64,000 bases of DNA from Bacteroidota bacterium (GCA_018267475.1 JAFDYI010000017.1:1-64000), one strand, 5' to 3'; shown: positions 9,349 through 24,164, counted from the first letter of the stretch. Program-made: numbers and translations. Notes: generated by a model not told the origin, from the letters alone.

Positions 9349-10362
9349 ATGCAAAACAGATATAAAATAATAAGTTTGCTTTTTTTGTTGAAGTTTTGCT
9401 GGATATCTGCACAAACCAATAATGCAAGCACTATGAACGACAAACTGAGGCCTGCTATACAAAAAATAATAGATGAAATTGCTAAAACCAACATGCTGAA
9501 AACAGAAGGGGTGGGTGAAGCAGGGGTGCGTACCGCCCAGTGGGAGAGGTTTGAACAACTAAAAAAAGAAGCTACGTTACAAGAAATAAAATACCTTACC
9601 GATTACCCTAATGCGGTGGTGCGTGGCTATGCTTTTTGGGCTTTGGTAGAGCAAGATAGTGCGGAGGTGTTTTCTGTGTTGCAGCAACATCTAAGCGATA
9701 ATGAAAAGCTAAGCGTGTTTGAGGGCTGCTTAATCAGCCAATATTATGTAGGGGAATATTTTTTAAACAAAGCCAGCCACCATCTTAACGCTGCACAAAA
9801 AGCAGAAATTGATAGCGCACTTTTGTTTAAAGAAGCGATTATCCTCCCTCAAAAATACGCACTCCTTGAAAAGTTGAAACCGAAACAAGCCTATTACAAC
9901 CGAATAAAAGAAATAGCCCAAACCGAAAAAAAACCGGAGGCTCTTTTGGCCCTATCCCGATTTAAAAATAAAGAAGACATACCCCTTGTGAGCACCCTTT
10001 TTGATACAGAAGACAGCGAATACAACGGCCTACGCGCCGCCATTGCCTTTCCGGATACCGCTTTTTATCCGTTCTTAATAAAAGTATTTGAAAGAGAATG
10101 GGCAAAAGTTTTTTACAACTATAAAAAGTGGAAAGCCTTATATCAAGCCTTGGCGTTGCAAAAGCCCTCTGAAAAAATAGTTACCCTGTTTGAAAGAGCT
10201 ATTAAAACAAAAGATGATTTTAGATATCAAATATTAGGCGAATACCTGTTATTAGGCATTACTAAATACCCGAATGCTTTATACGAACCTCTAAAAACGC
10301 AAATAAAATTAGACGAGCATCACCTACGCGATTTAAAATACGAATTAGAACAGGAAGAGTGA
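9349..10362 (+). CDS. Secreted protein of unknown function, HEAT-like helical repeats
   Basis: I do not recognise a named family. The 337-residue protein begins with a signal peptide (hydrophobic KIISLLFLLKFCWISAQ, likely cut after Ala-20 or Gln-21). The rest is predominantly helical, with segments such as YPNAVVRGYAFWALVEQD and ALLALSRFKNKEDIPLVSTLF that resemble HEAT-type repeats. No catalytic motif is visible. It has its own promoter and lies just upstream of the polyene-type operon on the same strand, but 200 bp apart, so a link is unproven. Confidence 0.7.
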   Translation: MQNRYKIISLLFLLKFCWISAQTNNASTMNDKLRPAIQKIIDEIAKTNMLKTEGVGEAGVRTAQWERFEQLKKEATLQEIKYLTDYPNAVVRGYAFWALVEQDSAEVFSVLQQHLSDNEKLSVFEGCLISQYYVGEYFLNKASHHLNAAQKAEIDSALLFKEAIILPQKYALLEKLKPKQAYYNRIKEIAQTEKKPEALLALSRFKNKEDIPLVSTLFDTEDSEYNGLRAAIAFPDTAFYPFLIKVFEREWAKVFYNYKKWKALYQALALQKPSEKIVTLFERAIKTKDDFRYQILGEYLLLGITKYPNALYEPLKTQIKLDEHHLRDLKYELEQEE

Positions 10363-10375
10363 AAGGGCCTGTGGG

Positions 10376-10383
10376 TATATTTG
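10376..10383 (+). promoter_or_regulatory. TATATTTG element before a 33-codon ORF
   Basis: This exact TAnnTTTG match lies 20 nt upstream of a small ORF (10404-10505) in the gap before the polyene-type operon. It could drive a small peptide or a non-coding transcript. Confidence 0.4.
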
Positions 10384-10403
10384 TGATAGCGCATAAAAAC
10401 AGG

Positions 10404-10505
10404 ATGTGGTTGCAAAGTATAATGGAGCGAAAAACCTCCATGATATTATTTAAAAGAGAAGAGGTGGACTTGGATAACAGCCACCCCCTTTTTATAGATT
10501 GCTAA
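10404..10505 (+). CDS. Possible 33-residue small ORF upstream of the polyene operon
   Basis: The ORF runs from ATG 10404 to TAA 10503-10505 and gives a 33-residue peptide starting MWLQSIMERKTSM. Support is only positional: an exact TATATTTG element 20 nt upstream and location in an otherwise empty 200-bp gap. A short hairpin (ATGGAG at 10422-10427 with CTCCAT at 10436-10441) lies within it, so the transcript may equally be a structured leader or small RNA. No family is recognised, and it may be spurious. Confidence 0.25.
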   Translation: MWLQSIMERKTSMILFKREEVDLDNSHPLFIDC

Positions 10506-10544
10506 TAATTTTAACATTTTTCTGAAATTTTATTTTTTTTGGCG

Positions 10545-10552
10545 TATATTTG
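10545..10552 (+). promoter_or_regulatory. TATATTTG -7 element of the polyene-type operon
   Basis: This exact consensus is 12 nt before the first ATG (10565). It shows that the TTG at 10550 cannot be the start. No other convincing -7 element occurs at the tightly packed junctions downstream, so this is probably the main promoter for the 15 genes. Confidence 0.7.
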
Positions 10553-10564
10553 CAGCCAGTTTTT

Positions 10565-10822
10565 ATGACAAAGCAAGAAATTATTGAAGCTACCAATCGC
10601 TTTTTGGTAGAAGAGTTTGAGGTAGATGCCGCAAAAATAGTGCCCGAAGCCCCTTTAAAAGAAACACTGGGCTTGGACAGCCTCGATTATGTGGATTTGG
10701 TAGTAATTATTGAAAGTAATTTTGGCTTTAAAGTAGTGGCCGAAGATTTTATACATATTCAAACATTTCAGCAATTTTACGATTACTGCTACACTAAAGT
10801 AGCCCAAAAAGCAAGCGCCTAA
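10565..10822 (+). CDS. Acyl carrier protein 1 of the polyene-type operon
   Basis: This 85-residue acyl carrier protein has the phosphopantetheine attachment motif LGLDSLDYVDL, in which Ser is the modified residue. It carries the growing or finished acyl chain as a thioester. It is the first gene of the operon and lies 11 bp before the LpxL-like acyltransferase, which suggests it presents the chain to that enzyme. A second carrier protein is encoded at 14352-14606. The two-carrier arrangement is typical of aryl polyene and flexirubin clusters. Confidence 0.92.
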   Translation: MTKQEIIEATNRFLVEEFEVDAAKIVPEAPLKETLGLDSLDYVDLVVIIESNFGFKVVAEDFIHIQTFQQFYDYCYTKVAQKASA

Positions 10823-10833
10823 AACCCAACGCC

Positions 10834-11739
10834 ATGCAGCAACAAAAGTGGCAAGGGAAAAGTTCGGGAGGGGTACTAGGTTATAGAATTTTTGTTTTTC
10901 TGCTAAAAAATACGGGGCTTCGTTTTTCTTATTTTTTTCTGCACATCATCACTTTTTTTTACTTCCTTTTTTCAAAGGCAAATAGAAGCACCTATTATTA
11001 TTTTAAAAAAATACAAGGCTACCCTACGCTCAAAGCCATTATGAGTATCTATCAATGTTATTACGTTTTTGGACAAACCCTGTTAGATAAATTTGCCTTT
11101 CTATCGGGTGCGGTAAAAACGAAATTTTCTTTTGTAAGAGAAGGGCAAGAGGAACTTATCCACATTCATAAGCAAAAAAAAGGTTGTATTTTAGTAAGTG
11201 CACACACCGGCAATTGGGAAGTAGCCGGTCAGTTTTTGAATGCGTACGATAAACTAAAATTTAATATGCTGGTGTATGACAACGAGGCCGAACAAATGAA
11301 AAAATACGTAGGCGATGTATTAAAAAACAAGCAGATAAATTTAATTTCTATGCGCCACGGCGATATTGGTTATTTAGTAGAACTGCACCGCGCCTTTAGC
11401 GAGCAAGAGTGGTTGGTTATGCACGGCGACCGCTTTACCTCCGGGGCGCCCTTTATAGAAAAAACATTTTTAGGAAAAAAAGCTAAATTTCCGATAGGCC
11501 CCTTTATACTGGCAGCAAAATTTGGAGTACCCGTTTTATTTTCTTGCTGCATGAAAGAAAGCAGGTATGGGTATAAATTTTATGCCCAGCAAGGAAGCCT
11601 ACAACCCAAAGCGCGGGGCGAAAGGGCTACACAAGAAACGGTAGAAATACTCTCAAATGAGTATATTGCCTTTTTAGAAAAAATAGTTAAAAAATATCCG
11701 CTCCAATGGTTTAATTTTTACGAATTTTGGGAACATTAA
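10834..11739 (+). CDS. LpxL/HtrB-like lysophospholipid acyltransferase
   Basis: This 301-residue protein of the lipid A lauroyl/myristoyl acyltransferase family has one N-terminal hydrophobic region (about 22-50) and the catalytic HX4E motif HTGNWE at residues 124-129. Further blocks include LGKKAKFPIGPFILAAKFGVPV around 210-231. Relatives in aryl polyene-type clusters are thought to attach the polyene chain or an additional acyl chain to a lipid anchor at the inner membrane. It lies between the first carrier protein and the first dehydratase. The actual acceptor is unknown. Confidence 0.88.
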   Translation: MQQQKWQGKSSGGVLGYRIFVFLLKNTGLRFSYFFLHIITFFYFLFSKANRSTYYYFKKIQGYPTLKAIMSIYQCYYVFGQTLLDKFAFLSGAVKTKFSFVREGQEELIHIHKQKKGCILVSAHTGNWEVAGQFLNAYDKLKFNMLVYDNEAEQMKKYVGDVLKNKQINLISMRHGDIGYLVELHRAFSEQEWLVMHGDRFTSGAPFIEKTFLGKKAKFPIGPFILAAKFGVPVLFSCCMKESRYGYKFYAQQGSLQPKARGERATQETVEILSNEYIAFLEKIVKKYPLQWFNFYEFWEH

Positions 11740-11746
11740 ACACAAC

Positions 11747-12190
11747 ATGAATTTTTTAGTAAACAAACAACATATTTCCGAATACATTCCGCAAAAGCCA
11801 CCCATACAAATGATTGATGCGATAATAAAATACGAAGAAACACGTATGGTTACCCAATTCGAAGTTTTATCTAATAACATCTTTGTTCAAAATGGCTTGT
11901 TTTGCGAACCCGGCATTACAGAAAACATGGCCCAAACGGCAGCGGCCAAAGCGGGATACGAAACAAAACTAAAAAAAGGGCCTCCCTTTATTGGGTTTAT
12001 AGGCGCCATAAAAAATTTAAAATTGTTTTTTCTCCCCAAAGTAGGCAGCATTATTACTACTACGGTAGAGGTAAAAACCGAGGTGATGGGCATTACCCTT
12101 ATTGAAGCATTTTCTGAGTGTAATAACAAAAAAATAGCAGCTTGTGAAATGAAAATTGTAATACAAAACACAACCCATGTCAGCCAATAG
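11747..12190 (+). CDS. ApeP-like hotdog dehydratase subunit lacking the catalytic His
   Basis: This 147-residue FabZ-type hotdog protein contains YIPQKPPIQMIDA (FabZ-like entry strand) and FCEPGITENMAQ, where Glu-59 aligns with the catalytic acid of FabZ. The usual GHFP segment is absent and there is no His between residues 39 and 58. It therefore has one half of a dehydratase active site. The other hotdog protein in this operon (18751-19134) has the complementary residue, so the two probably work as a heterodimer like ApeI:ApeP. It overlaps the thioesterase gene by 14 bp. Confidence 0.85.
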   Translation: MNFLVNKQHISEYIPQKPPIQMIDAIIKYEETRMVTQFEVLSNNIFVQNGLFCEPGITENMAQTAAAKAGYETKLKKGPPFIGFIGAIKNLKLFFLPKVGSIITTTVEVKTEVMGITLIEAFSECNNKKIAACEMKIVIQNTTHVSQ

Positions 12191-12611
12191 AAGCCTAACT
12201 ACAAGCACTGATATCATAGTAAAATTTAGCGATTGCGATGCGCTGCAAATGGTGTGGCACGGTAACTACATCAAATATTTTGAAGATGGAAGAGAAGATT
12301 TTGGCCGAAAATTTAATTTAGGCTATTGGGATATATATCAACAATCGGGCTTGGCGGTACCACTGGTGCATATAGCCTGCGATTTCAAAAAATTTGTTTT
12401 TTTAAATGAAGTAGTTACGGTGCAATCTACTTTTATAGATACGCCTGCTGCAAAAATAATTTTTGAGTATAAAATTTTTAATTCAAAAAAAGAATTGATT
12501 TGTACAGGGGAAAGCACACAAGTATTTGTACATGCTCAAACAAAAGAATTGGTATTGGTTACGCCTCCTTTTTACAATAGTTGGAAGGAAAAAATATTTT
12601 CGGGAGCATGA
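12177..12611 (+). CDS. 4HBT-type acyl thioesterase
   Basis: This 144-residue hotdog thioesterase of the 4-hydroxybenzoyl-CoA family has the signature KFSDCDALQMVWHGNYIKYFEDGRE near residues 15-40, which contains the catalytic-type Asp. Relatives in aryl polyene clusters are thought to edit or release carrier-bound intermediates. Its start overlaps the upstream dehydratase and its stop overlaps the ketosynthase ATG (ATGA), indicating translational coupling. Confidence 0.9.
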   Translation: MSANRSLTTSTDIIVKFSDCDALQMVWHGNYIKYFEDGREDFGRKFNLGYWDIYQQSGLAVPLVHIACDFKKFVFLNEVVTVQSTFIDTPAAKIIFEYKIFNSKKELICTGESTQVFVHAQTKELVLVTPPFYNSWKEKIFSGA

Positions 12612-13729
12612 CGTCGGCTTACATACAACACTCTAATATCATTAGCCCGTTGGGATTTAACACCGCAGAAAATTTTACTTCTGTTTGTCAAGGAATATCC
12701 GGAGTAAAAGACTACAGTTCTTCCTCGCAAAAAAAATATTATGCAGCCGCTTTAAACAACACGCTTTTAGATGCGTTTTTTTGTTCGCAAACAAAATGTA
12801 ATCCTCTTTATTATACTCGTGCTGAAAAAATGAGCATATTATCAGCACAAGATGTAATCAATACTTCCAATATAGAGGTGTCAAACCCGCGTACTTTATT
12901 TATTTTTTCTACTACCAAAGGAAATGTGGAGCTATTAGAAAATAAATCGGCATATATTCCGGAAAACAGAATATATTTATACGAAACAGCGCACGCCGTA
13001 AGTCTTGCTTTAGGGTTTAAAAACAAACCTTTAGTAATATCAAACGCTTGTATATCAGGGCTTTTAGCCCTTATCGTAGCCAAGCGGTTAATAGAAAATA
13101 ATCAATACGATTCTATAATAATAACAGGAGTAGATGTGCTTTCTGATTTTATTTTATCAGGCTTTAATTCTTTAAACGCGCTAAGCACAGAGGCTTGTAA
13201 GCCTTTTGATAAAGATAGGAGCGGTATTAATTTAGGAGAGGCCGCAGCAACCGTACTCCTTTCTAAGGAAAGGAAAGAAAAAAGCGTGCGTATGGAGGCA
13301 GCTTATTCCAGCAATGATGCCAACCATATTTCCGGTCCCTCGCGCACAGGAGAAGGTTTGTATCAATGTTTGCAAAAAATACAAACTAAAAACACCCCTG
13401 ATTTTATTAACGCCCACGGCACCGCCACCATATATAATGATGAGATGGAGGCTGTTGCTTTTAGCCGTGCGGGGTTACAAGGTGTGCCCGTTGCCAGTTT
13501 TAAAAATTATTACGGACATACATTGGGTGCAGCCGGAGTGGTAGAAAGCATTTTGTGTGTAGAAAGCCTTAGGCAAGAAAAAATGATTGCCTCAAAAGGG
13601 TTTGAAAAACAAGGAACCTCCGTGGCTTTGAACGTAATACAAAATACACATCACAAAAAAAGTACCAGTTGTATAAAAACAGCTTCTGGTTTTGGAGGGT
13701 GCAACGCCGTTGCGCTATACACGATATGA
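12608..13729 (+). CDS. Beta-ketoacyl-ACP synthase with intact triad
   Basis: This 373-residue ketosynthase of the KAS II fold performs decarboxylative chain extension. The triad is complete: Cys-148 in NACISG, His in NAHGTATIYND, and His in YYGHTLGAAG. The start is set at ATG 12608, which overlaps the thioesterase stop as ATGA. The upstream in-frame codons would run into that gene. It may act as the priming or alternative ketosynthase, since a second active ketosynthase with its own chain-length partner lies downstream. Confidence 0.93.
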   Translation: MTSAYIQHSNIISPLGFNTAENFTSVCQGISGVKDYSSSSQKKYYAAALNNTLLDAFFCSQTKCNPLYYTRAEKMSILSAQDVINTSNIEVSNPRTLFIFSTTKGNVELLENKSAYIPENRIYLYETAHAVSLALGFKNKPLVISNACISGLLALIVAKRLIENNQYDSIIITGVDVLSDFILSGFNSLNALSTEACKPFDKDRSGINLGEAAATVLLSKERKEKSVRMEAAYSSNDANHISGPSRTGEGLYQCLQKIQTKNTPDFINAHGTATIYNDEMEAVAFSRAGLQGVPVASFKNYYGHTLGAAGVVESILCVESLRQEKMIASKGFEKQGTSVALNVIQNTHHKKSTSCIKTASGFGGCNAVALYTI

Positions 13730-14349
13730 ATACGGTTATACACTCATATACACGGTTAAAAAACGAGGGCTTATGGCATAATAAAAATCTTTGTGCAGCC
13801 GCATCGGAAAATAAAGAACTTGTAAAAACACTGGACGAATTATATAAAGAAATGGTTTTAGAGTATCCTAAGTTTTATAAAATGGATAGCTTGTGTAAGG
13901 CGGGTATTTTGTGCGCAGAGCCTTTGTTGAAAAACACAGATACCAACCCTTCTTTTGATAAGCAAAAAATCGCATTAGTATTTTCTAATAAAAATGCCAG
14001 TCTGCAAACAGATTGCGCCTATGAACACACACGCAACACGTTTCCAAGCCCATCGTTGTTTGTATATACCCTGCCCAATATCGTTATCGGAGAGGTAGCT
14101 ATTAAACATAAAATTACCGGCGAAAATATTTTTTTTATCGAACCTTCTTTTAATGCCCAGTTGTTGTACCACTATGCCGAAATTTTGTTGCAAGAAAACG
14201 ACTTGGTGCTTTGTGCTTGGCTTCATATTACGGATAATGCCTTAGATGGTTTTTTTTACACGGTAATGAAAGAACCGATAGATACCGAAAAAAAGAGTAC
14301 TTTTATACAACATAAAGCAGAAAATATACATAAACTTTATATGCAATAA
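13726..14349 (+). CDS. Inactive ketosynthase-like protein
   Basis: This 207-residue protein resembles the N-terminal ketosynthase fold only (VYTLPNIVIGEVAIKHKITGENIFFI). It has no Cys at the position where the active ketosynthases carry it and no C-terminal half with the two His residues. Short proteins of this kind recur in aryl polyene and flexirubin clusters and may be structural partners of a ketosynthase or dehydratase. Its ATG overlaps the stop of the preceding ketosynthase (ATGA), and the second carrier protein starts 2 bp after its end. The role is unproven. Confidence 0.8.
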   Translation: MNTVIHSYTRLKNEGLWHNKNLCAAASENKELVKTLDELYKEMVLEYPKFYKMDSLCKAGILCAEPLLKNTDTNPSFDKQKIALVFSNKNASLQTDCAYEHTRNTFPSPSLFVYTLPNIVIGEVAIKHKITGENIFFIEPSFNAQLLYHYAEILLQENDLVLCAWLHITDNALDGFFYTVMKEPIDTEKKSTFIQHKAENIHKLYMQ

Positions 14350-14351
14350 CT

Positions 14352-14606
14352 ATGGAACATTTAATTGAAGATTTGAAAAAACAAATTATAGAACAGCTAA
14401 ACTTAGAAGAGGTAAAACCCGAAAACATTGATGCCTCTGCTCCTTTGTTTGGAGCCGGATTAGGGCTTGATTCTATTGACGCGTTAGAACTAATCGTGCT
14501 TTTAGAAAAAAAATACGGAATAAAAATAGCCGATCCGCAAGAGGCAAAAGATATTTTTGTGTCGGTGCAATCTATGGCGAAATATATTTCTTTGCACAAA
14601 AAATAA
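14352..14606 (+). CDS. Acyl carrier protein 2 of the polyene-type operon
   Basis: This 84-residue acyl carrier protein has the attachment motif GLGLDSIDALEL, with Ser as the phosphopantetheine site. It abuts the downstream ketosynthase directly (TAA then ATG), so it is probably the carrier used by the ketosynthase and chain-length-factor pair during elongation. Confidence 0.94.
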   Translation: MEHLIEDLKKQIIEQLNLEEVKPENIDASAPLFGAGLGLDSIDALELIVLLEKKYGIKIADPQEAKDIFVSVQSMAKYISLHKK

Positions 14607-15788
14607 ATGGTGTTTGTAACCGGCATAGGCATTGTTTCGGCTATTGGAAAAAACGCGAATGAAACCCTTTCTTCTTTAAAAGAATTGCGCACGGGTATTG
14701 GCGCCATAAAACAATTACACACAGTACATAAAAGTACAATGGTAGCGGGCGAGGTAAAACTTTCAAACGAAGAATTAACCTGCTTTTTAAAAACAAAAAG
14801 TTACGACCGCACTACTTTGCTAAGCTTAATGGCTGCGCAAGAAGCGTTGCAACAGGCAAACATAAAAACAAATTCGGGGCATAAAACAGGGTTTGTTTCG
14901 GCAAGCAGTGTAGGCGGTATGTGCCGTAGTGAAAAAGAGTATCAAAATTTTATAGAAGGCAAGCCCTATACTCGTTTTATAGACACGCACTACACAGGAG
15001 TTCATGCGCAGGAAGTGGCAAAACATTTTGGAATCACCGATTATGTTACTACCATAAGTACCGCCTGCTCTTCTTCTGCTAATGCTATCATGCTGGGCGC
15101 CCGCTTAATAAAAAATAAAATATTGGATAGGGTAGTGGTGGGAGGTGCCGACGCACTTTGTTGCTTTACTCTTAATGGATTCAATTCTTTGATGATTTTA
15201 GATAAAGAGTGGTGCAAGCCCTTTGACCATAATAGAAGAGGGTTAAATTTAGGAGAAGGTGCGGCTTATTTAGTATTAGAATCGGAGGAGGTAGTAATGC
15301 AAGAAAACAAAAAAACGTTAGCCGTAATAAGTGGCTACGGTAATGCCAACGACGCCTACCATCAAACGGCTTCTTCTCCTCAAGGAGTAGGGGCTACTCG
15401 GGCTATGCAACAAGCCCTGGTAAGCGCAAAATTACAACCTAAAGATATACGCTACATCAACGCGCACGGAACGGGTACTGCCAATAACGATTTATCAGAG
15501 GCAACGGCTATAAAAAATGTTTTTGGAGAAAGCATTCCTAAATTTAGTTCTACCAAATCATATACGGGGCACACATTAGCTGCCGCTGCTAGCATAGAAG
15601 CGGTTGTTTCTATTTTATCTATGAAAGAAAAAAGTATTTTTCCTAATTTGAATTGTATAGAACCAATGCAAGAAACAAATTTATTTCCGGAAACGACATT
15701 GCAGCACAATCAAGAATTAACACACGTGCTATCCAACTCGTTTGGCTTTGGAGGGAACTGTTCTTCTCTTATTTTTAGTAAAAAGTAA
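14607..15788 (+). CDS. Beta-ketoacyl-ACP synthase (ApeO-like elongating ketosynthase)
   Basis: This 393-residue KAS II-type enzyme has a complete catalytic set: Cys-154 in STACSSS, His in NAHGTGTANND and His in YTGHTLAAAAS. It is followed 5 bp later by a ketosynthase homologue lacking the Cys. That arrangement matches the KS:CLF heterodimer (ApeO:ApeC) described for aryl polyene synthesis. It would extend the chain on the carrier protein encoded immediately upstream. Confidence 0.93.
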   Translation: MVFVTGIGIVSAIGKNANETLSSLKELRTGIGAIKQLHTVHKSTMVAGEVKLSNEELTCFLKTKSYDRTTLLSLMAAQEALQQANIKTNSGHKTGFVSASSVGGMCRSEKEYQNFIEGKPYTRFIDTHYTGVHAQEVAKHFGITDYVTTISTACSSSANAIMLGARLIKNKILDRVVVGGADALCCFTLNGFNSLMILDKEWCKPFDHNRRGLNLGEGAAYLVLESEEVVMQENKKTLAVISGYGNANDAYHQTASSPQGVGATRAMQQALVSAKLQPKDIRYINAHGTGTANNDLSEATAIKNVFGESIPKFSSTKSYTGHTLAAAASIEAVVSILSMKEKSIFPNLNCIEPMQETNLFPETTLQHNQELTHVLSNSFGFGGNCSSLIFSKK

Positions 15789-15793
15789 AAAAT

Positions 15794-16786
15794 ATGTACA
15801 TCAACGGTAAAGCCTGCATATCACACCAAAACAGCGTAGAAGAAGATTTTTTCATAGAACAAGCGGCTCTATCCTCTAACCCTCTTGCAAAAGCACAAGA
15901 GCCTCTTTACAAAAATTATATTTCAAGTACTCTACTGCGCCGCATGTCGCATGGCGTAAAAATGGGTGCAACAGCAGCTACTATTAGTTTACAAAAAGCA
16001 GGTGCTGAAACGGTAGATGCTGTTATTACAGGCACCGGGCTGGGTTGTTTTGAGGATACAGATGTGTTTTTGAGAGAACTCATTACCAACCAAGAGCAAA
16101 CTTTGTCTCCTACCGCTTTTATACAATCCACACACAATACCATAGCCGGGCAGATAGCTTTAATTTTTAAATGCCATGGCTATAACCTTACCTACACGCA
16201 GCAAGGTCATTCGTTTGAAAACGCTTTGTTTGACGCACATTTGTTCTTAAAAGAGAATGAACAAGCAAAAGTATTGGTAGGAGGTGTAGATGAAATAACC
16301 GATTCGTATGGTCAGCTATTTGAAGCCGAAGAAGCGTTCAAAAAAAACAAGGTAGCTTTAGGAGAGGGGGCGGTTTTTTTTGTGCTAAGCAATACCAAAA
16401 CCGTTAATACAAAAGCAAAAGTAGAGGGTATAAGTATGTTTTTGTATTCTAAAGAAATAGAGTGGCAAAAAAAAATTACCGATTTTTTAAAAGAAACAAA
16501 TACCACAATATCTGAAATTGATGTAATACTTTCCGGGAATTACAAAAAAGAAGATGTGTTAAATGAGGAGTTAGAAAAAATAGCTCCTTTGGCGAATATA
16601 GTTTCTTTTAAAAAATGGTGTGGCGAGTATTTTACCGCAAGTTCTTTTGCTTTATGGCTGGCTGCTTTAATAATAGAACAACAAAAAATACCACAGCAAA
16701 TTAAAACAGTAAGCGTAAAAAAAGTATTGGTTGTAAATCAATACCAATACTCGGAGTGTTCATTTATTTTAATATCGGCATGTTAA
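15794..16786 (+). CDS. Chain-length-factor-like ketosynthase partner (Cys replaced by Gln)
   Basis: This 330-residue ketosynthase homologue lacks catalytic residues. Where active enzymes have the nucleophilic Cys this protein reads YTQQGHSF, placing Gln-137 at the Cys position, as in KS-beta/chain-length factors of type II polyketide synthases. The C-terminal His motifs are also lost (FKKWCGEYFTASSF). It presumably pairs with the ketosynthase just upstream and sets chain length. Its stop overlaps the start of the deacetylase gene. Confidence 0.88.
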   Translation: MYINGKACISHQNSVEEDFFIEQAALSSNPLAKAQEPLYKNYISSTLLRRMSHGVKMGATAATISLQKAGAETVDAVITGTGLGCFEDTDVFLRELITNQEQTLSPTAFIQSTHNTIAGQIALIFKCHGYNLTYTQQGHSFENALFDAHLFLKENEQAKVLVGGVDEITDSYGQLFEAEEAFKKNKVALGEGAVFFVLSNTKTVNTKAKVEGISMFLYSKEIEWQKKITDFLKETNTTISEIDVILSGNYKKEDVLNEELEKIAPLANIVSFKKWCGEYFTASSFALWLAALIIEQQKIPQQIKTVSVKKVLVVNQYQYSECSFILISAC

Positions 16787-17553
16787 ACCATAAAAAGAAT
16801 ATAATTCTATTGGTAGTATTGCTTGTGGCCCTTTTAGCCGGCGTTTATTTTTTAAAATACAATCCTTGGATTTTATTAATCCCGTGTTTTGTTTTTTTGT
16901 TTATAGAAGTTTCCGGAGCCTCTATGCTTGCTGCAAATTTTCATTTTATTTCAACATGTACCGGCGGCACTAAAGAAAAAAAAGTAGCGCTTACTTTTGA
17001 TGATGGCCCGCATGGGGCAGAAACAGAAAAGGTATTAACAGTATTAAAAAAACACGAAGCTTCCGCCACTTTTTTTTGTATTGGAAAAAAAGCAGAACAA
17101 GACAGGGAGTTGATTTTAAAAATAGATAAGGCGGGACATCTTATAGCGAATCATAGTTACACACATTCTTTTTTTTTTAATTTACAAAACACGAAAATGC
17201 TGCAAGAAGAAATAGACAAAACTAATGCCTGTATAGAAGGTATAATCGGTAAAAAACCTTTGTTTTTTAGGCCGCCCTATGGGGTAGCTACACCGGCTTT
17301 GGGGAGAGCTATAAAAAACACAAACATGAGCTCTATAGGTTGGGATATCCGCCCGTTTGATACATCGATACAAAACCCGGAAAAGATTGTGAAAAAAATA
17401 ACAAATGAAATAAAACCGGGGAGCATTATTTTATTGCATGATAGAATACGAAATAGTGATAAAACAGTAGATTTGCTTTTACAATTTTTATCAAAAAATA
17501 ACTATCAAGTAGTTTCGTTAGACAACCTTTTAAATACACCAGCTTATGCGTAA
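16780..17553 (+). CDS. Polysaccharide deacetylase family protein (NodB fold)
   Basis: This 257-residue protein has an N-terminal membrane anchor (about 6-45) and a complete NodB-type catalytic domain. The metal and catalytic motifs are TFDDGP with Asp-74 and Asp-75, HSYTH with His-125 and His-129, RPPYG, IGWDIRPFD and IILLHD. Such enzymes remove N- or O-acetyl groups from sugars. The start at 16780 overlaps the preceding stop (ATGTTAA), and its end overlaps the LolA gene by 8 bp, so it is firmly inside the operon. This hints that the product carries an acetylated sugar. Confidence 0.9.
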   Translation: MLNHKKNIILLVVLLVALLAGVYFLKYNPWILLIPCFVFLFIEVSGASMLAANFHFISTCTGGTKEKKVALTFDDGPHGAETEKVLTVLKKHEASATFFCIGKKAEQDRELILKIDKAGHLIANHSYTHSFFFNLQNTKMLQEEIDKTNACIEGIIGKKPLFFRPPYGVATPALGRAIKNTNMSSIGWDIRPFDTSIQNPEKIVKKITNEIKPGSIILLHDRIRNSDKTVDLLLQFLSKNNYQVVSLDNLLNTPAYA

Positions 17554-18172
17554 TTTATTTTTAGTACTATTTTTTTTAAACGGCATATTGTTTGCGCAAA
17601 AAACATTTAGGCCCCTAAAAGATACCTTGGCTTTTAAAGAAAAAATTGCTCAAATGGCTATTAAAACCAACACCTTAGAGAGCGATTTTACTCAGATAAA
17701 AACATTAAGTATGTTGTCTGAAAAAATGAGCAGCAAGGGGCACTTTTGTTTTAAAAAAACAAATCTTTTGCGATGGGAATACAGCACCCCCTATCGCTAT
17801 ATTATTGTGATAAACAAAGATAAAATGCTGATAAAAGATGACGTTAAGCTAAAAAAATACGACATAAACAGCAATAAAATTTTTAAAGAAATAAACAACA
17901 TTATGATTTCTTGCATTGATGGCAACGTATTAAATACCGGGAAATTTAAAGCTTCGTATGCAGAAAACGAATGGAATTATAAAATAGACCTTATACCTAT
18001 TGCAAAAGAGATGAGAGAAAGCTTGAAGCAAATAAATATGTATTTTGATAAAGCGGTGTCTTCGGTAACGAGAATAGAAATGATAGAATCGAGCGAAGAT
18101 TTTACCACGATAGATTTTACAAATAAAAAAATAAATGGCGACCTATCTCTTGAAAAATTTACTCTTAAGTAG
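17546..18172 (+). CDS. LolA-like outer-membrane lipoprotein carrier protein
   Basis: This 208-residue secreted protein has a signal peptide (MRNLFLVLFFLNGILFAQ) and a LolA-type half-barrel pattern (LESDFTQIKTLSMLSEKMSSKGHFCFKK, LLRWEYSTPYRY). LolA-like proteins in aryl polyene-type clusters are believed to shuttle the lipid product across the periplasm. It overlaps the deacetylase by 8 bp and the following lipoprotein gene by 38 bp. Confidence 0.88.
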   Translation: MRNLFLVLFFLNGILFAQKTFRPLKDTLAFKEKIAQMAIKTNTLESDFTQIKTLSMLSEKMSSKGHFCFKKTNLLRWEYSTPYRYIIVINKDKMLIKDDVKLKKYDINSNKIFKEINNIMISCIDGNVLNTGKFKASYAENEWNYKIDLIPIAKEMRESLKQINMYFDKAVSSVTRIEMIESSEDFTTIDFTNKKINGDLSLEKFTLK

Positions 18173-18758
18173 TATGCTCGTCGGCTTTATGAGTTGCGCC
18201 GTTCCGCTCCGATACAAAAGAGTAACCAGCGCACCGCCAATGAAAGTACTTTTAAATAGAGATAGTGTAAGTTTGTATAAGATGCAGGTGTATTTGTTTC
18301 GCCGTTATTACACTGGTATTTTAATGGATAAAAAAATAAATAATACAAATAGATTGGTTTTTGTTACCGAGTTGGGAATGAAAATTTTTGATATAAAATT
18401 AGTTGCCGATAGTGCTGAGGTGGTGTACTGCTTTAGCCCATTAAACAAACCTAAAATAACAAATATATTAAAAACAGATTTACAATTTTTGTGGCTAAAA
18501 TCATCCTCCGTAAATCCAGATAAAATGTATGAAAATAAAAACAAAGAGCAAATTTATATTGTAGAAAAAAACAAAAAAAAATATTGGTATTATATTTCAG
18601 AAAACAAAATAAATAAAACCCGAGCAAAAGAAGGAGCATTTACAAATAAAAAAGGGCATTATAGCTACACCTTAAATAATGAAATAGAGCATGCCGTTTT
18701 AAAACACAAAGGGTTGCTTCGCCTAAAAATAGAGTTGCAAAAAATACACCATGAATAA
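18135..18758 (+). CDS. Lipoprotein of unknown function in the polyene-type operon
   Basis: I do not recognise a named family. The 207-residue protein has a short hydrophobic N-terminus ending in a lipobox-like VGFMSC, so Cys-21 is the probable lipidation site. The mature part is basic and beta-rich, without visible catalytic motifs. It overlaps the LolA-like gene by 38 bp and the second dehydratase by 8 bp. Its place beside LolA suggests an outer-membrane receptor of LolB type for the product. That is inference from position and lipidation only. Confidence 0.72.
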   Translation: MATYLLKNLLLSSMLVGFMSCAVPLRYKRVTSAPPMKVLLNRDSVSLYKMQVYLFRRYYTGILMDKKINNTNRLVFVTELGMKIFDIKLVADSAEVVYCFSPLNKPKITNILKTDLQFLWLKSSSVNPDKMYENKNKEQIYIVEKNKKKYWYYISENKINKTRAKEGAFTNKKGHYSYTLNNEIEHAVLKHKGLLRLKIELQKIHHE

Positions 18759-19134
18759 AAAAATGATTGAAGATTTTTACACAAAAAAGCAGCCTGTGGA
18801 GCCGGCGCCTCCCTATTCTTTTTGTGATACGATAGAATTAAATACGGAGCACCCTATATACAAAGGGCATTTTCCCGATATGCCTGTGGCTCCGGGTGTA
18901 GTGCTTATTCAACTCATACAAAACATGTTATCCGATGCTCTTGGCGCACCTATACGGCTGCGAGAATCGGATAATATTAAATTTTTAGCTGTAGTTAGCC
19001 CTTCTGTAGAGCGCACCTTAACAATATCAGGAGTCTTTTCAAAGCAGGGAACAAGAATAGAGACCGCAGCCACTATTAGCGGCGCGCAAACGATATATGT
19101 AAAGTTTAAAGGAATTTTTGAAATAATATCATGA
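18751..19134 (+). CDS. ApeI-like hotdog dehydratase subunit with His but without the catalytic Glu
   Basis: This 127-residue FabA/FabZ-type hotdog protein has the canonical KGHFPDMPVAPGV motif with catalytic His-40. Fourteen residues later, where FabZ has the catalytic Glu, it has Gln-54 (VVLIQLIQ). It is therefore the complement of the dehydratase encoded at 11747-12190, which keeps the Glu but lacks the His. Overlaps of 8 bp and 4 bp with its neighbours show coupling within the operon. Confidence 0.87.
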   Translation: MNKKMIEDFYTKKQPVEPAPPYSFCDTIELNTEHPIYKGHFPDMPVAPGVVLIQLIQNMLSDALGAPIRLRESDNIKFLAVVSPSVERTLTISGVFSKQGTRIETAATISGAQTIYVKFKGIFEIIS

Positions 19135-20321
19135 CTTCAAAAGCCTCACTAGATAACTTGTTTGAAGAGCTTCGTTGTTGTGTGTTGATACCGACCTACA
19201 ACAATGAAAAAACACTTGAAAAAGTACTTACAGAGGTTCTTACATACACACATCACGTGTTGGTGGTAAACGATGGCTCTACCGATAGTACAAAAATAAT
19301 TTTAGAGAGGTTTAAAGAGCGTGTTTTTGTTGTGTCTTATGAAAAAAATCAAGGAAAAGGATTTGCCTTACAGACAGGGTTTCGTTTTCTTGTAGAAAAA
19401 AAATATCGCTATGCTATTAGTATAGATAGCGATGGGCAACACTATCCCTCTGATTTAGAAAAATTTTTACGTTTAATAAAAGAAAAGCCCGACTCGCTTA
19501 TTATTGGCGCCCGTAATATGGAGCAAGATAGCGTGCCCGGTAAAAGTAGTTTTGGAAACAAATTTTCTAATTTTTGGTTTCATTTAGAAACAGGGATTAA
19601 AATGCCCGATACGCAATCGGGCTACCGTTTGTATCCAATAGAAAAGTTAAAACCTATTTTTTTTCATACACAACGTTTCGAGTTTGAAATAGAAGTAATA
19701 GTAAGAGCTGCTTGGGAAAACATACCTGTAATTCCGGTGGCGGTAGGCGTTTTTTACCCAAATAGTAAGGACCGTGTATCTCATTTTCGGCCTACTAAAG
19801 ATTTTCTAAGAATAAGCGTGTTAAATTCTGTTTTAGTTGTACTGGCTGTATTTTGGTATCGGCCTAAAAAGTTTTTTTTAGAATTAAGTTTAAAAAAAAT
19901 AAAAAACTATTTATATACAGCTTTCGCAGATAAAAACGAATCTATTCTTAAAAAAACACTTTCGGTAAGCGTGGGTATTTTTTTTGGCCTTTTACCTATA
20001 TGGGGCTACCAACTTATTGCAGCCATTGCCATCGCTTATTTGTTTAAATTAAATAAAGCCATTGTTATTATTGCTGCTAACATTAGCTTGCCTCCTATGA
20101 TTCCCTTTATCTTGTACTCTAGTTTAAAGGTAGGCGAATTGATTACCCATACATCAACTTCATTTTCTTTGAGTGATGTTAATTTTAATATCATAAAAAA
20201 CAATATGCAAGTATATTTGTATGGTTCATGCGTTTTAGCTATAACCGTTTCTGTGGCAATAGGACTATTGACCTTTTTAGGATTATTTATAAAGAAAAAA
20301 ATAGTAAAAAAAAATACATAG
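19131..20321 (+). CDS. GT2 glycosyltransferase fused to a DUF2062 membrane domain
   Basis: This 396-residue fusion has a GT2 domain in residues 15-235 (CVLIPTYNNEKTLEKVL, VVNDGSTDST, SIDSDGQHYPSDL with the DxD motif). A DUF2062 domain with several membrane helices fills residues 260-390 (SVGIFFGLLPIWGYQL, NKAIVIIAANISLPPMIPF). It probably adds a sugar to the lipid product or its anchor on the inner leaflet. It directly abuts the exporter gene and overlaps the dehydratase gene by 4 bp (ATGA). The same fusion is common in Bacteroidota flexirubin-type clusters. Confidence 0.9.
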   Translation: MTSKASLDNLFEELRCCVLIPTYNNEKTLEKVLTEVLTYTHHVLVVNDGSTDSTKIILERFKERVFVVSYEKNQGKGFALQTGFRFLVEKKYRYAISIDSDGQHYPSDLEKFLRLIKEKPDSLIIGARNMEQDSVPGKSSFGNKFSNFWFHLETGIKMPDTQSGYRLYPIEKLKPIFFHTQRFEFEIEVIVRAAWENIPVIPVAVGVFYPNSKDRVSHFRPTKDFLRISVLNSVLVVLAVFWYRPKKFFLELSLKKIKNYLYTAFADKNESILKKTLSVSVGIFFGLLPIWGYQLIAAIAIAYLFKLNKAIVIIAANISLPPMIPFILYSSLKVGELITHTSTSFSLSDVNFNIIKNNMQVYLYGSCVLAITVSVAIGLLTFLGLFIKKKIVKKNT

Positions 20322-23300
20322 ATGTTGGCATATCGCATATATCTCTTTTTTGCTAAACGGAAAGTAGCATTGACATTGCTTTTAGCGACAATTATTTCCT
20401 GTTGTGTTTTTTTCGCATTAAAATTAAAAAAAGAAGAAGATATTACACGCTTTATTCCGAAAGATAAAAGCGCGCGAGGTATTAGCGATATTTTTAATAG
20501 CTTAAAAATAAAAGACAAGATAGCGATAAACATATACAACCAAGATAGCACCGAAACGGCTACTGAAAACATCAAATTTTCGGTAGATACATTGGCTCAA
20601 ATGCTTCAACAAAAATTTGGGAACTCATACATAAAAGAAATGAGGTACAAAATAGCAGAAGAAAAAACGGCCGACTTGTACGAGGTGCTTTACACGTATT
20701 TACCGCTTTTTTTAGATGAGGCAGATTATATTTTATTACAAAATAAAATACAAAAAGATTCTATTTATCAAACCATACAAAACAATTATAAAACATTGCT
20801 TTCTCCTAGTGGAATGATATTGGGTAAGTATATAAAAAAAGATCCTTTAAGCATCACTCCTTTAGTCTTAAAAAAAATAAAAAACCTGCAATACGACGAA
20901 AATTTTGAGTTGAACGATGGATACATTTTTACTAAAAATAAAAAAAATGTATTGTGTGTTATTACTCCTAAGGTGGCATCTGGAGATTACAATGCCAACA
21001 AGCCATTTTTTTTGTACTTAGATAGCATCATACCTGTAATAGAAAAAAAACATCATACCGTTATAGAATATTTTGGAACGGCCGCAGTTTCTCTGTCTAA
21101 TTCGGAGCAAATAAAAAAAGACAGCATTCTTACCTCCACTATTGCGATAATAGCTATTGTACTCCTTTTGTTTTTGTATTTCAGACAAATTTTAATTCCA
21201 ATATACATTATTCTTCCGGTAGCTTTTGGGGCGGTATTTTCTTTAGCAGTTATTTATTTGCTAAAGGGACAGATATCGGCAATAGCTATGGGCGCAGGCT
21301 CTATTGTTTTAGGTATTGCCATTAATTATTCGTTGCATTTTTTCACGCACTTTAAACACGAAGATTCGATAGAGCGTGTATTAAAAGACCTTACGCTGCC
21401 CATGCTGGTGGGTTGCGCTACTACTGTTGGAGCCTTTTTTTCTTTGCACTTTGCTAAGTCGCAGGCCCTGCATGATTTCGGTTTGTTTGCCGGCTTTAGT
21501 TTAATAGGAGCCGTTTTGTTTTCTATACTTGTGCTGCCGCATTTGTTAAGAAAAAATAAACACAATAAAAATAAAATAGCTGAAAAAGATTCTCGCGTAT
21601 CTGTATTAGAAAATATTATTTCATACTCCTTTCATAAAAACAAATGGATTCTTTTTACTTTCTGTGCCTTTACCATTTTATTTTTTTTCAGTTCAAAAAA
21701 AGTATGCTTTGAGAGCGATATGAATCAAATAAATTATGAAACAGAAAAATTAAAAACGGCAGAGCAGCACTTAAACACACTCAACAAATTTTCTTTACGC
21801 TCGGTATATGTGTTAGCAAATGGAAAAAATATAGAAGAAGCTCTTCGCGCTCACGAGCGCGCAGTCAGCTCATTACAAAAATTAAAAGAAAAAAATATTG
21901 TAGCCAAATACTCTTCTATTACCGGTTTATTGGTGTCTGATTCGCTACAAAAAATACGCATAAAAAGATGGAACGATTTTTGGACCATACATAAAGACAG
22001 CGTGAAAATATATTTAACTTCTTACGGAGAAAAAGCACACTTTAATCAACAGGCCTTCGCTTCTTTTTTTGCGTTATTAGATAAAAAATTTACTACTACA
22101 GCCCTTTCAGAAAACCCCGTTTTAAAAGACTTAACAGCCGATTGGATATCAGAACACAACAACACCATATCTATCGTTTCTTTTTTAAAAGTATCAGAAA
22201 AAATAAAACAAACGGTTTACAAAACTTTTGAAAACACTTCACAAATCATAGTATTTGATAAGTATTACTTAACACAAAAATATGTAGAACTTATAAGTGC
22301 TGACTTCAATACTATTTTACTTATTACCGGACTGTTGGTTTTTGTGGCTATGTTGCTTAATCATGGCCGTATAGAGTTGGCTATTATCAACTTTCTGCCC
22401 ATGCTTATTACTTGGGTGTGGATTTTGGGTATTATGGGCTTGGCGGGTATAAAATTTAACATCATCAACATCATTATTTCTACGTTTATTTTTGGGCTTG
22501 GCGATGATTATAGTATTTTTATTATGGACGGATTATCATCGGAGTATAAGTACGGAAGAAAAAATTTGTCTTCTTACAAATCATCTATATTTCTTTCTGC
22601 GCTTATTACTACTATTGGTTTAGGCGTATTGTTGTTTGCTAAACACCCTGCTTTAAAGTCTATTGCGCTTATTACTATTATAGGTATGGTTACCGTTGTT
22701 TTTATCTCTTTTATTGTACAGCCTCTTTTATATAACGCGCTTATTTTAAATCGCACAAAAGAAAAAAAACCACCTATTACAGCAAAAAATTTTTTTATGA
22801 TATGGCTTGGTTTTTTTATTTTTTTCTTTGGAAGTTTTGTGATACGATGGGGTGGGGCCTTTATCTTTAAACTATATCCCGGAAACAAATCTCAAAAAAA
22901 ACTTCGTTTCCATGTTCTGTTTATGAATACGTGCAAGTTTATTATTTATTTTTTTACTAATGTAAAGAAAAACATTATAAACAAAGAAGCCGAAACATTT
23001 AGCAAACCGGCTGTTATTGTTTGCAACCACCAATCGTTTATTGATTTAGCCTTGCTTCCTACTCTGTTCCCAAAAATGACGATGTTTACGAAAGTATCGG
23101 TGCAAAAATCTTTTTTCTTTGGTAAAATAGTACGCATGGCCGATTTTTATCCGTCTGATTGGGGAGCCGAACAATCGATAGATAAAATACGAGAACAGAT
23201 GAAAGATGGATACTCGGTAGTTGTTTTTCCGGAGGGCACACGCTCTACCACCGGAAACATTTTACGCTTTCATAAAGGCGCTTTTTTCTTAGCCGAAAAG

Positions 23301-24164
23301 CTGCAAGCCGACATCATTCCTATTGTGCTGCACGGGGCTGATTATTGCTTACCCAAAAATGATTTTTATTATAGAGAAAGCCAACTTACCTTAAAAATTT
23401 TACCCCGCATACAACCCGGCCAAACCGACTATAGAACGGTAGCTAAAAACACAAGGGCGCTGATGCAGCAAGAGCTAAATGATACAAAAGCACAAGTAGA
23501 AAATACGTTGTTTTATCGCCCGGAACTTATTAGAAACTACATTTACAAAGGCTGCGTATTGGAATGGTACTGCCGCATCAAAACAAAACTAGAAAACAAT
23601 TATAAACAATTCGATGAAATAATTCCGAAAGAAGGAAAAATTATAGATGTAGGTTGCGGGTATGGTTTTCTTTCTTTAATGCTGAGCTTAACCGGGAGAA
23701 ACAGAACGATTTTAGGAATTGATTACGATGAAGATAAAATTTTAATTGCAAATAATTGCGTTTCTAAACCCAACCATTTGCGTTACCTGTGCGCTGACGT
23801 TACTTCCTACCCTTTTGAAAGTGCCGACGTTTTTATTATAAGCGACGTGCTACATTATCTGTCTGCTGCCGAGCAGGAAGCTCTTATAGAACGCTGTATC
23901 CATAAATTAAATAAAAACGGGGTGCTTATTATTAGAGATGGTGACGCCTCTTTGTTAGATAAGCATCGATTTACAAAACTCACCGAATTTTTTTCAACTA
24001 AAATTTTTAATTTCAATAAAACCAATCAGAAATTAAATTTTTTCCCTTCGTCTATGGTGGTAAATATGATAAATAAACACACCTTTCTTTCGTACCAAAA
24101 AATACACGACAGTTCTATTACTTCTAATTATATTTTTGTAATTAAAAAAAGCGCCAGCATCTAA
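20322..24164 (+). CDS. Trifunctional MMPL exporter / PlsC acyltransferase / SAM-dependent methyltransferase
   Basis: This single 1280-residue reading frame has three parts. Residues 1 to about 860 form an RND/MMPL-type exporter with two sets of membrane helices and two large periplasmic loops (GAGSIVLGIAINYSLHFFTH and FGLGDDYSIFIMDG mark the two halves). Residues about 880-1070 form a PlsC-type acyltransferase with CNHQSFID (HX4D, near 900) and FPEGTRS (near 969). Residues about 1100-1280 form a class I methyltransferase with IIDVGCGYGFLS (near 1110) and DYDEDKI. The same three-part fusion is known in Bacteroidota flexirubin-type clusters. It probably acylates, methylates and flips the product. 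It ends 2 bp from the oppositely oriented radical SAM gene. Confidence 0.93.
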   Translation: MLAYRIYLFFAKRKVALTLLLATIISCCVFFALKLKKEEDITRFIPKDKSARGISDIFNSLKIKDKIAINIYNQDSTETATENIKFSVDTLAQMLQQKFGNSYIKEMRYKIAEEKTADLYEVLYTYLPLFLDEADYILLQNKIQKDSIYQTIQNNYKTLLSPSGMILGKYIKKDPLSITPLVLKKIKNLQYDENFELNDGYIFTKNKKNVLCVITPKVASGDYNANKPFFLYLDSIIPVIEKKHHTVIEYFGTAAVSLSNSEQIKKDSILTSTIAIIAIVLLLFLYFRQILIPIYIILPVAFGAVFSLAVIYLLKGQISAIAMGAGSIVLGIAINYSLHFFTHFKHEDSIERVLKDLTLPMLVGCATTVGAFFSLHFAKSQALHDFGLFAGFSLIGAVLFSILVLPHLLRKNKHNKNKIAEKDSRVSVLENIISYSFHKNKWILFTFCAFTILFFFSSKKVCFESDMNQINYETEKLKTAEQHLNTLNKFSLRSVYVLANGKNIEEALRAHERAVSSLQKLKEKNIVAKYSSITGLLVSDSLQKIRIKRWNDFWTIHKDSVKIYLTSYGEKAHFNQQAFASFFALLDKKFTTTALSENPVLKDLTADWISEHNNTISIVSFLKVSEKIKQTVYKTFENTSQIIVFDKYYLTQKYVELISADFNTILLITGLLVFVAMLLNHGRIELAIINFLPMLITWVWILGIMGLAGIKFNIINIIISTFIFGLGDDYSIFIMDGLSSEYKYGRKNLSSYKSSIFLSALITTIGLGVLLFAKHPALKSIALITIIGMVTVVFISFIVQPLLYNALILNRTKEKKPPITAKNFFMIWLGFFIFFFGSFVIRWGGAFIFKLYPGNKSQKKLRFHVLFMNTCKFIIYFFTNVKKNIINKEAETFSKPAVIVCNHQSFIDLALLPTLFPKMTMFTKVSVQKSFFFGKIVRMADFYPSDWGAEQSIDKIREQMKDGYSVVVFPEGTRSTTGNILRFHKGAFFLAEKLQADIIPIVLHGADYCLPKNDFYYRESQLTLKILPRIQPGQTDYRTVAKNTRALMQQELNDTKAQVENTLFYRPELIRNYIYKGCVLEWYCRIKTKLENNYKQFDEIIPKEGKIIDVGCGYGFLSLMLSLTGRNRTILGIDYDEDKILIANNCVSKPNHLRYLCADVTSYPFESADVFIISDVLHYLSAAEQEALIERCIHKLNKNGVLIIRDGDASLLDKHRFTKLTEFFSTKIFNFNKTNQKLNFFPSSMVVNMINKHTFLSYQKIHDSSITSNYIFVIKKSASI

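Follow-up and report, generated by a model that had tools for sequence, protein, structure and literature searches.

A divergent ApeI:ApeP-type dehydratase pair with a probable shared active site in a polyene-type operon of a Bacteroidota bacterium

Described dehydratase pairs and the operon at 10550-24164

The active sites of the dehydratases FabA and FabZ are composed of residues from both subunits of a dimer and contain a Glu/Asp-His dyad (PMC2698920). FabA and FabZ are homodimers with two complete sites, and each chain carries both residues. The ApeI/ApeP dehydratase of aryl polyene synthesis is stated to have a single active site (PMC8041823). The corresponding complex of Xenorhabdus doucetiae was crystallised as a heterodimer (PDB 6QSR, 'The Dehydratase Heterocomplex ApeI:P'). 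In this complex, as in the ApeI/ApeP pair of Escherichia coli CFT073, ApeP carries the glutamate and lacks the histidine, and ApeI carries the histidine along with an aspartate at the FabA position (GHFPVQPLLPGVAQIDW). In Acinetobacter baumannii the histidine is found only in ApeI and the glutamate only in ApeP. There, ApeI forms one protein with the acyl-ACP synthetase ApeH, and the ApeH(I)/ApeP pair serves as dehydratase in a working in vitro synthesis of aryl polyenes (PMC8041823). Among the Bacteroidota, the flexirubin cluster flxA-flxY of Chitinophaga pinensis encodes the two dehydratases FlxF and FlxS (PMC3992019).

The window, that is the whole stretch of 64,000 nucleotides of Bacteroidota DNA that was analysed, contains at positions 10550-24164 a run of genes located on the same strand, in which neighbouring genes often overlap. 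This operon is of the type II polyene kind and comprises, in addition to the two dehydratase genes described in the next section, the following features:

10550-10822, + strand: acyl carrier protein 1 (PP-binding, E 9.1e-9)
10834-11739, + strand: LpxL-type lysophospholipid acyltransferase, ApeD-like (Lip_A_acyltrans, E 2.3e-11)
12177-12611, + strand: hot-dog thioesterase, ApeK-like (4HBT_2, E 1.5e-15)
12581-13729, + strand: ketosynthase with the cysteine and both histidine motifs (domain search, alignment)
13669-14349, + strand: open reading frame without a Pfam match and with a probable start near 13717, tentatively assigned as a short remnant of the KS/CLF type (suggestive alignment position)
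14352-14606, + strand: acyl carrier protein 2 (PP-binding, E 1.3e-9)
14607-15788, + strand: FabF-type ketosynthase, ApeO-like (domain searches, alignment)
15794-16786, + strand: chain-length-factor-like ketosynthase without the catalytic cysteine (Ketoacyl-synt_2, E 1.3e-12; TQQGHS aligned to STACSS)
16756-17553, + strand: polysaccharide deacetylase-like protein with a counterpart in the flx cluster (domain search; flx gene content from PMC3992019)
17546-18172, + strand: LolA-like carrier (LolA, E 1.1e-18)
18135-18758, + strand: putative outer-membrane lipoprotein at the ApeN position (no Pfam match; N-terminal lipobox-like sequence)
19131-20321, + strand: family 2 glycosyltransferase with DUF2062 (domain search)
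20322-24164, + strand: fused MMPL exporter, acyltransferase and methyltransferase (domain search)

The gene content of the operon agrees with that of the flx cluster of C. pinensis (PMC3992019) and of the ape cluster of E. coli. A set of ketosynthases, acyl carrier proteins, a thioesterase, two dehydratases, a polysaccharide deacetylase, a LolA protein, a glycosyltransferase and an exporter are encoded together, and the ketosynthases include two complete proteins and one ketosynthase-like protein devoid of the active-site cysteine. The protein of about 210 amino acids encoded at 13669-14349, between a ketosynthase and an acyl carrier protein, may represent a shortened ketosynthase/CLF-like subunit. 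The region 20322-24164 specifies one protein of 1280 amino acids; in the E. coli cluster each of its functions has a gene of its own.

In this comparison by gene content, the locus differs from the flx cluster by the lack of ketoreductase, ammonia-lyase and ligase genes, and neither a ketoreductase nor an ammonia-lyase gene was detected within 10550-24164. An ApeQ-like ketoreductase gene (42% identity of the protein to E. coli ApeQ) is located at the end of contig C4 of the same genome, followed by a ketosynthase gene and, approximately 2 kb further, by an aromatic ammonia-lyase gene (together C4:240-5776, locus L173), indicating that the pathway is split over more than one locus. Two other genes with a FabA domain were found in the genome, encoding an LpxC-FabZ fusion (contig C3) and a FabA-like protein (contig C9). 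The latter (C9:24240-24780, corresponding to 10242-10781 in locus L174) is a complete FabA-type dehydratase with the GHF histidine and a glutamate at +14. Its gene lies between a ketosynthase and an acyltransferase gene and near a ketoreductase gene in a second, fatty-acid-like cluster, and the protein narrowly passes the Pfam ApeP-like model.

Active-site residues of the two dehydratase subunits

The two dehydratase genes and the codons of the residues considered here are positioned as follows:

11747-12190, + strand: ApeP-type dehydratase subunit of 147 amino acids, Glu59 kept and histidine loop deleted (translation, conservation, NCBIfam, AlphaFold2, Foldseek)
11921-11923, + strand: codon of Glu59, which would provide the acid of the proposed shared site (computed from the translation; invariant in relatives)
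18751-19134, + strand: ApeI-type dehydratase subunit of 127 amino acids, His40 kept and Gln54 in place of the FabZ glutamate (translation, Pfam, conservation, AlphaFold2, Foldseek)
18868-18870, + strand: codon of His40, which would provide the histidine of the proposed shared site (computed from the translation; conservation)
18910-18912, + strand: codon of Gln54, a residue of the predicted inert pocket (computed from the translation; conservation)

Both reading frames are intact. An earlier note on this DNA had stated that the protein encoded at 11747-12190 keeps Glu59 but contains no histidine between residues 39 and 58, and the translation confirmed this: Glu59 is located in the motif ITENMAQ, and the only histidines are His9 and His143. 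The GHFP loop that bears the histidine of FabZ is missing. In an alignment of 170 ApeP-type relatives the residues Glu59, Ala62 and Gln63 are invariant (170/170), and the histidine loop is represented by a deletion of four to five residues with respect to the FabZ protein of the same genome. No conserved histidine is present in the loop, since each loop column contains this residue in at most 12 of the 170 sequences. A histidine does occur at column 44 in 38 of the 170 relatives and was considered as a residue that might restore a full site in ApeP. This candidate was rejected because the column is located upstream of the deleted loop, pairs with a non-catalytic histidine of Campylobacter jejuni FabZ (DHVFMGHFP) and holds asparagine in most of the relatives. 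As a separate observation, two tandem ApeP-type paralogues, both having the glutamate and lacking a FabZ-type histidine, are encoded beside a single ApeI in many genomes of the flexirubin type from families f4 and f5, for example at L162 13885-14806 and L161 13945-14884.

In the protein encoded at 18751-19134, His40 is part of the GHFP motif (YKGHFPDMPVAPGV / GHFPDMPVAPGV) and Gln54 follows exactly 14 residues later, at the position of the FabZ glutamate, as had also been noted before; this is the position of the aspartate in FabA. All 98 ApeI-type relatives have the GHF histidine, whereas the residue at +14 is variable and comprises glutamine (82 sequences), aspartate (7), glutamate (6) and glycine (3). 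Aspartate was found in the enterobacteria E. coli, Moellerella and Cedecea, in Cupriavidus, Caballeronia and Pseudoalteromonas and in the solved Xenorhabdus protein, glycine in Acinetobacter and one member of the Saprospiraceae, and glutamate in a small number of Bacteroidota, among them Reichenbachiella. Six changes between acid and non-acid residues, and eight over all residues, were deduced on the ApeI tree; these counts are only rough because the tree, built from 130 columns, is poorly resolved with many open forks. In two genomes (G413 and G416) the ApeP and ApeI genes are adjacent or overlapping (L157 6969-7799 and L150 6628-7472, respectively), and the ApeI proteins keep glutamate at +14, possibly representing a separate subtype.

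Single-chain AlphaFold2 models showed a confident hot-dog fold for the ApeP-type protein (pLDDT 92.6) as well as for the ApeI-type protein (pLDDT 91.0). Glu59 is located in the central helix 54-75 of the former model, whereas in the latter Gln54 lies within the central helix 49-64 and His40 in the loop preceding it. The protein encoded at 11747-12190 thus combines the features of an ApeP subunit, namely a hot-dog fold, a glutamate in the central-helix motif xE..AQ and the absence of the FabZ histidine, and that encoded at 18751-19134 the features of an ApeI subunit, a short hot-dog protein with the histidine motif GHFxxxPxxPGV.

Kinship and co-occurrence of the two subunits

Neither protein contains the histidine and the glutamate of FabZ in one chain, and both scored far below the FabZ family models of NCBIfam, with best values of 34.4 and 26.7 bits against cut-offs of 113 and 155. 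The ApeP-type protein matched NCBIfam FabZ with an E-value of 1.8e-8 and the ApeI-type protein Pfam FabA with an E-value of 1.4e-4, the latter being under the family cut-off. The two proteins likewise remained under the thresholds of PF22817 (ApeP-like) and PF22818 (ApeI-like), although 20 of 59 ApeP relatives matched the former and 20 of 22 ApeI relatives the latter at E<0.1. Profile comparison yielded probabilities of 94.6% for E. coli ApeP and 96.5% for E. coli ApeI. A search of the PDB sequences with the window proteins returned only weak FabZ matches, with 6QSR_A matching the ApeI-type protein at an E-value of 0.19 and no match to 6QSR_B. In Foldseek comparisons the ApeP-type model matched 6QSR_B with a TMq of 0.84 at 15% identity, and the best matches of the ApeI-type model were FabZ/FabA chains, 6QSR_A being absent from the best 50. 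The pair is therefore connected to 6QSR via the E. coli homologues, profiles and folds, at low sequence identity to the characterised subunits.

The relatives came from a sample of 87 genomes of the same family, a phylum-wide sample of 392 genomes, 80 genome contigs and nine proteobacterial clusters. The genes for ApeP and ApeI were detected in an identical set of 38 of the 392 Bacteroidota genomes, counts that are not phylogenetically independent; the hypergeometric probability of this overlap is about 1e-53 when shared ancestry is ignored. In the family sample all 30 genomes with ApeI also encode ApeP, and ApeP occurred alone in three fragmented assemblies. The genome of the window contains one gene each for ApeP and ApeI, 6.5 kb apart. 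The joint occurrence also holds for several genomes with unlinked genes, which lie on separate contigs or at a distance of about 670 kb (in genome G053, for instance, at 189 kb and 857 kb of the same contig). A natural fusion of ApeI and ApeP was not found among the loci examined; the one open reading frame matched by both models turned out to be the complete FabA-type protein on contig C9.

Assignment of the catalytic site and alternative explanations

The two dehydratase proteins almost certainly work as a pair, and very probably they are ApeP and ApeI of the flexirubin type of the Bacteroidota, the two subunits of a heterodimeric 3-hydroxyacyl-ACP dehydratase, in which His40 and Glu59 would constitute one working site and the other pocket would be inert. 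According to this model, the ApeP-type and ApeI-type subunits would pair 1:1 as two hot-dog folds, so that His40 of the 18751-19134 subunit would meet Glu59 of the 11747-12190 subunit across the interface and the two residues would form a single FabZ-type site. The second pocket, containing Gln54 of ApeI and no histidine from ApeP, is predicted to be inert, each subunit alone would be devoid of activity, and the pair is proposed to dehydrate 3-hydroxyacyl-ACP during chain building of the aryl polyene. An invariant histidine in ApeI and an invariant glutamate in ApeP together with a variable +14 position are expected if catalysis depends on this His-Glu pair only and the constraint on the other pocket is relaxed. 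The use of an ApeI:ApeP heterocomplex in aryl polyene systems, to which the earlier note had referred, is borne out by 6QSR, with the same invariant histidine and glutamate. The further proposal of that note, an active site shared at the heterodimer interface, is supported by this structure, by the published data on FabA/FabZ and ApeI/ApeP (PMC2698920; PMC8041823), by the co-occurrence of the genes and by the variation at +14, and for the most part corresponds to what was known.

A homodimer of the ApeI-type protein might be active with Gln54 or another residue substituting for the acid, and ApeP might serve as a structural or ACP-docking partner. The strong retention of glutamine in the Bacteroidota would fit such an arrangement, and the solved protein and most proteobacterial ApeI proteins, which carry aspartate, could make up a full site alone. 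On the other hand, an invariant glutamate and AQ motif in ApeP would be needless in a mere scaffold, and no genome was found to have ApeI without ApeP. Moreover, the Acinetobacter ApeI has glycine at +14 and its pair with ApeP is active in vitro (PMC8041823), so that complete separation of the two residues between the subunits has in effect been demonstrated to be functional; the A. baumannii protein examined here (L138) is from another strain of the species than that of the published study. The activity of an ApeI homodimer is therefore regarded as very unlikely.

Even less is to be expected of the assumption that the pair is non-catalytic and that dehydration is carried out in trans by complete FabZ enzymes such as the LpxC-FabZ fusion or the FabA-like protein, although the genome does encode these two proteins and that on contig C9 keeps both GHF and the glutamate. 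A loss of catalysis would not preserve the histidine and glutamate halves, which are invariant throughout the phylum. E. coli possesses FabA and FabZ, and its ape cluster nevertheless keeps ApeI and ApeP. Just as improbable is a pairing of the hot-dog proteins with other partners, such as tandem ApeP-type subunits or the neighbouring thioesterase. The tandem ApeP paralogues of many flexirubin-type genomes and the distance of 6.5 kb between the window genes would be compatible with this arrangement, but the window genome has only one gene of each type, a dimer of ApeP-type proteins would remain without the histidine, and the solved relative is an ApeI:ApeP heterodimer.

With the shared His40-Glu59 site as the favoured assignment, the inert pocket need not be without function. 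Glutamine is kept in 82 of 98 ApeI sequences overall and in the Bacteroidota too strongly for an unconstrained site, which suggests that Gln54 may have a secondary role. Since the acid of ApeI is lost across most of the sampled Bacteroidota, the dependence of the subunits on each other appears to be mutual. A more speculative scenario, which we regard as rather doubtful, is that this loss and that of the histidine loop in ApeP led to an obligate heterodimer and that Gln54 in the second pocket was recruited to a new and conserved function, such as polyene binding or setting the order of the ACPs.

A site shared at the interface is an established property of ApeI:ApeP, and the window pair represents a divergent Bacteroidota version of it. 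Apparently new is the loss of the ApeI acid across most Bacteroidota sampled, for which no description was found; the ApeI proteins of 6QSR and E. coli still have aspartate. The natural variation of the +14 residue (Gln, Asp, Glu, Gly) offers an easy way of testing the predicted inertness of the second pocket, and annotation should take into account that neither subunit is a complete FabZ. These data extend the range of an already described heterodimeric dehydratase to a large branch of the Bacteroidota and provide a clean example of reciprocal loss, in which each subunit keeps its own half of the active site.
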